A DNA stretch of 64,000 nucleotides from Argopecten irradians (taxonomy: Eukaryota; Mollusca; Bivalvia; Pectinida; Pectinidae), in the NCBI RefSeq assembly GCF_041381155.1, contig NC_091143.1:22967695-23031694 (forward strand). The letters are read 5' to 3'. Below the pieces are notes generated by a model. The model saw nothing but the letters and a program-made list of their open reading frames with translations, was not told the origin of the DNA and searched no databases. A program made the translations under genes and the position numbers. This document shows, one piece after another, positions 13,301-64,000 of the stretch; position 1 is the first letter of the stretch, and every line of letters begins with the position of its first letter.

Positions 13301-16300
13301 CCTAATTTCTTTTATCCCCGACCCTATTTTTTCCCCACTTTTCTACGAAAAAACCCCAACAAAAACCTCCAGTTCCAGCCATTATTTTAGAGTGAAAGAC
13401 ACTAAAAAAAAAAAGAAAAATCTTCCCCACCTACAGACCCTAAACAGACATATTTTTTTTGGGCCTAAGTAATATAGTTTGGGTTGATTAGACAGACTTC
13501 AGAGTAACTTTATTAGAGGACATATATATACCTGATAATATGAAAATAGCTACGATACAATACACATACAAAGGTGTATCCTTCAATGCTATATAAAATA
13601 TATCCTACGTCACTAATAAAGGAAATATTTTGTTATATTTGAAACTTTAGTGTAGTGCATGAACCTTTTTCTCTCAGACTGTGTAAAAGATGTGTGTCCT
13701 TAGTATGATTAATAATAACCGTTAATAGTGATTCTATGTGTACTTTATAGGATGGTGATGAGGTATTTAACTACAGAACTCATGCAGACATTGTTACCAT
13801 ACCAGATCCAGAAATACTGGCTGTAAGTCTATATCTGTTTGTATGTTACAATTTAGTGTGTGACTTATCTGTATGATGTATACATAGCTACACTAAAACA
13901 GAGACCAACAAAATCACTTTAGTATAAGCATAGCTATTCAGATGATCCCTCAATTCATGAATTGCATGTGACCAAACAAGCAAGTGATTTATTGAAGTTG
14001 TATAATATGTTTCCTGACAATGGTATTATATCAAAATAAAATATAGGTTATTTTAGATTTGAGGATTGAATAACAGTAACATATGCACAATTCAAAATCT
14101 TTTGTTACCAGGAAAATCTTGTAGAAAATAAACACCATAAACTGGCCAGAAGTTTACGGAGTGGGCCCACTGACAGAGATATGAAACCTGACGCTAAGAC
14201 CAGAGATCAACTGAATGTTTGTATCTAATATCCATATGCTTTATATATATGTACATGTGTTGGTTTTGTCAGGGAGTGTTGGTGTAACATTGGGTCATAA
14301 CATTCTAGTGCTAGCACTCCACTATTGAGTTGCAAGTTTAAAACCCTTGTAGGGTTATTTACAGGCACTAAGCATAAGTTGATGTTTTAAGGGTACTCTG
14401 GTTTTCATCTACCTAACAAAAACTGGCACATCCTTAAAAGACCTTGGTGTTATATAGAATGTAATTACAATAGATATAAAACCAATATAACTGTGTACAC
14501 ACTATCATCTAGTCAAAATCAATGGTCAATTTCCATTCAAATTGTCAAAAATGTAATTTATATTACTCTGATAAAAGTAGCTTTTTCCCTTCTGAGTTTG
14601 TTATAAACCTGTTTAATAAATCACCCTGTATTATGTGTACTCTGTGTTCCTAGGCTATCTGTACCTATCCTTGTATCATGTTTATTTTTGTATTTCCAGG
14701 CTATCTGTACCTATCCTTGTATCATGTTTTTTTTTTGTATTTCCAGGCTATCTGTACCTATCCTCCTTTCAAACCTTTGACCTCAGAAGAACAGGATCTC
14801 ATTTGGAAGTTTCGGTTCTACCTCTGTAATCAGAAAAAGGTGAGAAATATTCCACAATGTGTAAAATTGAATTAAGTTAATTATACAAAATGTGCTATAA
14901 AATTCATTTTAATGATATATGATTATCTCCTATGATATAACTCACTCCTTTTTGCTTTCCACTACTCCTACATGTGTATGAGGCCTTATTCCACCCCGAT
15001 TATATGGGATGGATATGCATGTTAAAAAGTATCTCGTTGTGTTTAACCTCTTACATTGTTTGAGTAACTATACACATACTGTAGATCCAAAATGTCTGAG
15101 GGGTGTCAACTAGATTACTTCATAATTATGTAACTCTCCTTTATGCTCTTTAGTATTTACCATGTATTTTTTCATCAACTTTAGTTATATTTTACCGGTT
15201 ATATCTATCCACATGGCACAGGCCCTGACAAAGTTCCTGAAGTGTGTGAACTGGAAGCTGCACCTTGAGGTGCGCCAGGCCCTGGAGCTGCTGAGTCGCT
15301 GGAGTCCTATTGATGCTGAGGACGCCCTGGAATTATTGTCTCCTGTCTACCAGCACCCTACAGTGAGGAAGTACGCTGTGTCACGACTGAGGCAGGCCGA
15401 TGATGAGGTATTCCAGAATTTAAATATAGTATTGATTAGGTTAAATGTACAGTCAGGCATACTGTTGTGTCTTTGCTGTCAGTACTTAGACTGGTAGTGT
15501 AAGCACAAGCAAATTTGTATATGGTATAAGTCATTGAAGTCTTGTTTTCCCGAAAGAATGCATTTCATGAGCATTTTTTTACGATGAGAAATAATTTTGT
15601 GTAAATCATATTAAACCGTTTCTCCCACTATAAACATTAATGTGGTGTTAAGTTTTTGTGATTTACCAGGTCTGATTCCTTTTGTTTTTAGGACCTACTG
15701 TTGTACTTCCTCCAGCTTGTTCAGGCTTTGAAATATGAGAACTTTGAAGAGATAAAGAATGGTCAGGATAACTTAAGTACACGACGTGATTCCATCAGTA
15801 CAGCCGATACAGGCACCACCTACCCAGATAAGGACAGGTATACTACATCACTTTAGTTATCTAGTTTTTATGTAATAATACAGGTACCATATGTTGTTAT
15901 GCATCTATTGTGTATTTATTACAATGGATTGTTGTATTTTAATATTGTATCCCCACCTTCACCCTAACAGAGTATGTTAATTTAGGTTTTTCAGTCAGTC
16001 TATTAATTATTTGTCTGTACAGAATTTGCAACAGTTGTCGACCAATTATCTTCAATGTTTCCAGTTTTTGAGTTTGATTACCATGGTTTTGGAGGACATT
16101 ATTTGCTGGAGTTATGGCCCCTTTTGCTATAACTAAAACAATTGTAAAGCAATTTCTTCAAACTTGTTACAAGGTTATATGCCTTCAATACCTATTGAAG
16201 TTTGAATAGTACATTCAACCGACAATATTGGTTGGAGTTAAGGCCCCTAAAACAACTAAAATTATAATTTTCTATTGTTTTCCATGCATACTATTTTCCT

Positions 16301-64000: not shown

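Follow-up and report, generated by a model that had tools for sequence, protein, structure and literature searches.

Among 12 conserved genes of the bivalve Argopecten irradians, a recognizable copy of the splice junction itself was found within 200 bp of 25 of 508 junctions, as compared to 0 of 3189 positions in random sequence. The reading that we favor, with a probability of approx. 0.64, is that tandem duplication is abundant throughout the introns of this genome and is tolerated at exon edges because the exon-proximal splice site keeps the protein intact. Both 5' and 3' exon boundaries were affected (13 of 254 donors and 12 of 254 acceptors), and in the plain sense of occupancy junctions were not enriched for such copies.

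The duplications had been predicted from a single stretch of 64,000 nucleotides (the window, i.e., the whole stretch of DNA analyzed), in which four genes are concerned:

7406 to 23656, plus strand: gene body of PIK3C3 (VPS34), 24 exons modeled by spliced alignment; Pfam PF00454 (PI3_PI4_kinase)
25455 to 30581, minus strand: SRFBP1 (BUD22 family) gene, partial model; Pfam BUD22 match on a joined piece
38122 to 54843, minus strand: gene body of INTS3, 30 exons modeled by spliced alignment; Pfam PF10189 (Ints3_N)
55731 to 63999, plus strand: NARS1, 13 exons modeled, continuing past the end of the window; Pfam tRNA-synt_2

Gene models were built by spliced alignment to human proteins. As GT-AG borders (the rare GC donor apart) are imposed by the aligner, the canonical borders of the models do not represent independent evidence. 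Gene identities received independent support from Pfam and PDB searches with pieces of the models; for example, a piece of the NARS1 model with 231 residues aligned to residues 127-357 (likewise 231) of PDB chain 8tc8, which is named cytoplasmic asparagine-tRNA ligase. SRFBP1, the exons of which could not be modeled by homology, was left out of the junction statistics. Exon numbers used here differ in part from those of the original prediction, in which PIK3C3 exons 15, 23 and 24 were numbered 14, 22 and 23, and NARS1 exon 12 was numbered 13.

To score junction copies, a probe of 40 bases centered on the junction was compared with the sequence within 200 bp, using a threshold score of 16; the null for this probe was random sequence from a second-order Markov model based on four of the genes. 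The ten duplicated junctions claimed for the window, with an intronic repeat for comparison, are as follows:

14647 to 14764, plus strand: PIK3C3 exon 8 acceptor array; three copies of a 47 bp unit (TRF 2.5 copies, 95%; extension 89%), score 32/40; the exon-proximal acceptor (14746/14747) is the last copy of the array
18315 to 18391, plus strand: PIK3C3 exon 15 acceptor; a putative further copy lies 51 bp upstream (26 bp at 77%; marginal and below the scan threshold)
18466 to 18777, plus strand: PIK3C3 exon 15 donor array; three copies of a 102 bp unit, 84% (TRF and sequence reading), score 35/40; the exon-proximal donor (18492/18493) is the first copy of the array
23081 to 23210, plus strand: PIK3C3 exon 23 acceptor and codons; two copies 88 bp apart, 83% (45 bp at 80% in the coding-blind scan), score 22; exon-proximal acceptor at 23181/23182
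23607 to 23713, plus strand: acceptor, last four codons (YWRK) and stop of PIK3C3 exon 24, the last exon; two copies 52 bp apart, 91%, score 34
26846 to 27028, minus strand: SRFBP1 penultimate exon acceptor; two copies of a 90 bp unit, 98% (TRF and sequence reading); exon start at 26860, acceptor copy at 26950
38647 to 38750, minus strand: INTS3 exon 29 donor; two copies 56 bp apart, 85%, score 19; exon-proximal donor after 38712
45095 to 45214, minus strand: INTS3 exon 20 acceptor; two copies of a 57 bp unit, 90% (TRF; 93.7% in the coding-blind scan); the upstream copy has AA in place of AG
48055 to 48250, minus strand: INTS3 exon 13 acceptor; two copies 104 bp apart, 86% over 42 and 73% over 92 bases, score 25; exon-proximal acceptor at 48071
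62881 to 63257, plus strand: NARS1 exon 12 donor array; five copies of a 74 bp unit, 93% (TRF and sequence reading), score 38; the exon-proximal donor (62938/62939) is the first copy of the array
48726 to 48805, no strand assigned: intronic tandem repeat; 26 bp x 3.1, 100% (TRF)

When the sequences were read and the copies measured, nine of the ten duplications were firm and one, at the acceptor of PIK3C3 exon 15, was marginal; judged by its bases, this last copy could be a chance resemblance. The duplications in the window as a group are not explained as chance resemblance; eight of the nine firm cases scored 19 to 38 in the junction scan, as compared to a maximum score of 14 at the 3189 random-sequence positions. 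The ninth firm case, SRFBP1, lies outside the systematic scan, and its candidate exon (minus strand, 26811-26860) is bordered by AG and GT and is backed by an open reading frame that continues in frame into the conserved last exon. Two repeats inside introns had also been claimed; the one placed at 48729 is present (48726-48805 by TRF), and the one placed at 50935 was absent both from the TRF rows and from the coding-blind scan matches scoring at least 40.

Nine control genes (CLTC, XPO1, PRPF8, UBA1, SF3B1, VCP, POLR2A, POLR2B and ATP2A; 260 kb) were examined in the same assembly, which comprises 846 Mb in 1508 contigs, with larger contigs of 39 to 76 Mb where shown. Together with the window they make up the sample of 12 conserved genes, with 255 introns and 510 junctions. 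Two of the 510 junctions were left out for low sequence complexity, as were control positions below the same complexity; the C-terminal part of UBA1 (poor fit to the human protein), introns > 5 kb beside a modeled exon of < 60 bp, and conflicting introns were likewise left out. Copies were found at 8 of 127 junctions in the window and at 17 of 381 in the nine control genes (P = 0.48; Fisher's exact test), and junction duplications are not peculiar to the window. Of the 324 kb surrounding the ten loci, 16.2% was covered by TRF arrays with a period of at least 15; the window, at 7.4%, was the third lowest among these loci. Since arrays cover less of the window than of the 324 kb as a whole, the window is not a hot region; the high tandem-duplication rate proposed by the original prediction is thus borne out as a high load at the loci examined, but not as a local one.

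The structure of the copies was described for the 29 junctions scoring at least 14. The best-matching copy was located on the intron side in 28 of these (downstream for 15/15 donors and upstream for 13/14 acceptors), as predicted for splicing at the exon-proximal site. The lone exception was PIK3C3 exon 24, where the acceptor is copied together with the final four codons and the stop, and either acceptor would thus lead to the same protein end. The exon-proximal site is probably the working site, judging from the fit of the models to human proteins; the NARS1 model that joins exon 12 to exon 13 at the 62938/62939 donor matches known NARS1 231 residues for 231. The 17 straddling arrays detected by TRF had periods of 30-129 bp (in a search confined to 20-200), and each junction-spanning unit held both exonic and intronic bases. 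A rough look for microhomology at the breakpoints showed nothing clear.

The splice dinucleotide (GT or AG) was kept in 24 of the 29 copies and lost in five, as compared to 21.6 expected to keep it from the identity of the flanks. The reservoir of decoy sites that had been suggested is present insofar as these 24 copies retain the dinucleotide and may thus be regarded as putative sites; in this sample, decoys appear neither clearly protected nor clearly purged. We also considered that the extra copies may serve as reserve or regulatory splice sites and be maintained by selection. This is very unlikely; the retention of GT or AG in 24/29 copies is in the expected direction, but flank identity by itself predicts nearly as many, and five copies lost the dinucleotide. 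Spacing between copy and junction was divisible by three in only 6 of 29 cases (P = 0.17), and thus gave no sign of selection for in-frame use, and arrays with < 90% identity showed no excess at junctions (2 vs. 3.0 expected).

A second possibility is that repeats were mis-assembled into extra copies. At three donors (two in CLTC and one in UBA1) the copy was identical over 40/40 bases, with a spacing of 38 to 79 bp, and an amphioxus repeat of similar kind was aberrantly assembled in a draft genome, according to part of the account in PMC3087553. The other 26 of the 29 copies, however, show 3 to 29% divergence from the real site across the 38 flanking bases, which re-joining of the same reads cannot produce, and the contigs in question are of chromosome size. 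Mis-assembly as the sole source of the copies is therefore highly improbable. A genome search for a second copy of the NARS1 region in the assembly found none.

The original prediction had raised a process favoring splice junctions, and named shifted positions in the same introns as the control. This control did not show enrichment: copies were present at 25/508 junctions (4.9%), as compared to 258/2952 positions lying 60-200 bp farther into these introns (8.7%) and 1/890 positions deep in exons (0.1%). The ratio of junction to intron occupancy was 0.56 (0.40-0.73 by gene bootstrap). In matched pairs, copies were more frequent at the shifted point than at the junction for every combination of eight shifts and three thresholds, with 9 of these 24 comparisons individually reaching P < 0.05, and the profile of occupancy by distance climbed from exon to intron without a peak at the junction. 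A lower occupancy at junctions is expected even without any bias, because wholly exonic units insert coding sequence and are presumably lost. Distance profiles and matched shifts were used instead of coverage in 30- and 50-base windows, which gave 18/510 junctions (3.5%) as compared to 20% of intron positions at a threshold of 24 of 30 and is dominated by long arrays in long introns.

Counting duplication events gave a different picture. If a mutational process favored exon edges, with duplications starting at a breakpoint 8-30 bp inside the exon (e.g., through a chromatin, transcription-pausing or replication feature), more arrays should straddle junctions than random placement allows. In the main event count, straddling arrays were those with at least 8 exonic bases, and under the null the unit of each array was given a random position within the intron that holds it, after correction of intron length for the arrays present; wholly exonic units were assumed to be purged. 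Sixteen of 74 arrays straddled a junction as compared to 8.8 expected (P = 0.007; 12 genes, ancestral intron length), a 1.8-fold excess, and in the nine control genes 12 of 65 did so as compared to 7.0 expected (P = 0.037). The ancestral-length figure was used because a null with current intron lengths (17 vs. 6.1 and 16 vs. 6.0) ignores the lengthening of introns by arrays. The excess fell in copies with at least 90% identity; among copies with at least 95% identity, 9 of 26 straddled as compared to 3.9 expected, while below 90% the count was 2 of 33 as compared to 3.0. Array ends were also found at an exonic depth of 8-30 bp more often than the density of ends in the adjoining intron predicts (16 vs. 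4.9 in the 12 genes, 13 vs. 4.1 in the nine control genes and 8 vs. 3.6 in the control genes without CLTC), with one end at 31-60 bp and none at 61-100 bp. Overall, array ends lay closer to the exon border than a uniform distribution of exonic depth would give (mean scaled depth 0.33, P = 0.0075).

Against a process that favors exon edges, the pile-up at 8-30 bp was spotted post hoc, after several analyses, some of which showed no excess, and occupancy at junctions was below that of the shifted controls. The event count was also weaker under other choices: 16 vs. 10.1 with at least 5 exonic bases (P = 0.03; control genes 12 vs. 8.2, P = 0.10), 13 vs. 7.0 with at least 12 exonic bases (P = 0.013; control genes 9 vs. 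5.5, P = 0.08), 10 of 40 vs. 6.4 for periods of at least 40 (P = 0.08), and 11 of 60 vs. 7.2 without CLTC (P = 0.08). It further depended on the form of the null. Circular rotation of whole arrays gave no excess (14/55 vs. 13.2) and was set aside, as it moves arrays into exons, from which they are nearly absent; a null with an upper limit on exonic bases gave 14 vs. 6.3 in one form, with ratios from approx. 1.2 to 2.7 depending on the exonic overlap allowed, and for TRF arrays up to 500 bp the capped null gave 5.0 to 12.2 expected for 13 or 14 observed. Moreover, the straddling excess was not replicated in 17 held-out introns (10 from EFTUD2 and 7 from SF3B1, after removal of a doubtful SF3B1 intron and of two that had been counted before); these contained one straddler detected by TRF, which has 58 exonic bases and lies outside the 8-30 band, and copies were present at 2/33 junctions as compared to 14/218 shifted positions.

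Overall, a process that favors splice junctions is not established, with the shifted controls on one side and the placement null and the ends at 8-30 exonic bp on the other, and a modest bias of duplication events towards exon edges is possible. We regard a mutational process acting at exon edges as unlikely, though not negligibly so. The specific proposal that duplication is steered to exon edges, such that an array end 8-30 bp into the exon would be approx. three times likelier than in the adjoining intron and junctions would be mutational hotspots generating identical intact decoys, is similarly doubtful. To decide whether junctions are hotspots of duplication, events would have to be counted against a placement null of this kind, with exonic units purged, rather than against shifted positions.

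The original prediction had itself raised the concern that duplications with a coding anchor are easier to notice, and exon-anchored copies might in addition be recognizable for longer, since one copy is under selection. Consistent with this, 5 of the 10 cases in the window have < 87% identity. However, copies were also detected by a scan blind to coding, and the event excess lies in young copies, while the old class, in which inflation would be possible, shows no excess. Ascertainment is thus an extremely unlikely explanation.

Under the favored reading, i.e., abundant intronic duplication that is tolerated at exon edges, this genome would form and keep many short intronic tandem duplications (units of approx. 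20-160 bp, in 2 to approx. 100 copies), some units of which would by chance take in the end of an exon, its splice signal and some intron. One copy would stay joined to the body of the exon and all others would land inside the intron, leaving the protein unchanged provided that the exon-proximal site is used. Since the exon stays intact beside the first (donor) or last (acceptor) copy, such duplications would survive at exon borders, while wholly exonic units would insert coding sequence and probably be lost. The outcome would be that approx. 1 junction in 20 has an extra intron-side copy of itself, usually with an intact GT or AG. The copies may be made by slippage or unequal exchange; end joining was also considered. 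As far as shown, the mechanism is ordinary. The occurrence of junction copies in genes that were not selected for it and their near-absence from exons (1/890) were counted in favor of this reading; counted against it were the excess of straddling arrays over the 8.8 expected and the array ends at a depth of 8-30 bp (16 vs. 4.9), as well as the excess in copies of at least 90% identity, which is poorly explained by a longer detectability of exon-anchored copies.

As a kind, junction duplications are known from the amphioxus "mirages"; here they are found in another animal phylum and counted against controls. According to portions of PMC3087553 and PMC3902484, mirages are tandem units of approx. 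10-160 bp across exon-intron boundaries, at donors as well as acceptors, in Adh3, the globins BflGb6 and BflGb9, and TnC, with similar repeats in PGBD5; AG or GT is kept in many but not all copies, mRNA splicing is apparently normal, and copy number varies between haplotypes or somatically. The duplications described here share four features with mirages, i.e., units that span the boundary, occurrence at both exon ends, retention of AG or GT in many but not all copies (24/29), and unit lengths within approx. 10-160 bp. They differ in that they occur in a mollusc and in housekeeping genes, and were counted against controls (approx. 5% of junctions); in addition, the amphioxus case includes allele comparison and transcripts, while the mollusc case is known from the sequence of one assembly. 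Searches of open-licence full texts did not bring up a description of boundary-spanning duplications for any mollusc, and passages of the mollusc papers PMC7931591, PMC4669188, PMC5700196, PMC10546077 and PMC10729735 do not describe them. If mirages are common in a mollusc, then they are not a lancelet oddity.

Intron gain by tandem genomic duplication, in which the duplication includes splice signals, is described in sections of PMC4974935 for potato RdRp and vertebrate ATP2A1, and we asked whether it explains the copies found here. It is a known mechanism with AGGT-containing duplications, and the present arrays likewise represent tandem genomic duplication that includes splice signals. However, under the intron-gain model the new intron has a copy on either side, and among the 72 TRF array events examined, none extends > 8 bp into the exons on both sides of its intron. 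The arrays are located at one end of an existing intron instead of enclosing it, with units that consist of an exon edge and its intron rather than an exonic AGGT segment. We thus give intron gain almost no credence as an explanation. Ordinary intronic minisatellites resemble the straddling arrays in the range of unit size, copy number and identity, within introns of the same genes, and differ from them in that the straddling arrays contain an exon edge and a splice signal. A high tandem-repeat load in a mollusc is also seen in Chlamys farreri, where tandem repeats make up 11.3% of the genome and are the most abundant repeat type, as stated in part of PMC5700196; that figure is genome-wide, while the load given here refers to 324 kb around chosen genes and to periods of at least 15.

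Mirages common in a mollusc would moreover amount to a natural experiment on a wide scale, with two to dozens of occurrences of one splice site per intron; the choice of the spliceosome among identical sites, and the rate at which new introns or exons originate in this manner, would then be readable from ordinary RNA data.

Several other repeats were observed at the loci studied. The PIK3C3 intron between exons 4 and 5 contains a tandem array (10955-12202) with a 326 bp unit in 3.8 copies (84%; TRF). The NARS1 intron after exon 12 contains a short dispersed repeat of approx. 105 bp (63764-63892), for which 22 other matches (79-95% identity) are spread over many contigs, and a 72 bp direct repeat (33192-33263 and 33782-33853; 94%, 590 bp spacing) is located between the SRFBP1 and INTS3 models. 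Four introns, i.e., PRPF8 intron 4, CLTC introns 1 and 11, and POLR2B intron 12, consist mostly of one tandem array (31 bp x 102, 35 bp x 40, 38 bp x 32 and 39 bp x 54); in two of the four, the array straddles the donor.

Some small contigs matched the same query stretch as large ones, with equal identity for C1157 and C6 and for C994 and C1, and nearly equal identity for C1329 and C6, which suggests that C1157, C994 and C1329 may be retained second haplotypes. A family search for COX1 gave no match in the whole assembly, and no mitochondrial contig was found in that way. The 23-base sequence of miR-1985, which is printed and called mollusc-specific in a passage of PMC12261956, is present letter for letter in the genome, and a miR-1993 sequence was also matched, within a good hairpin.
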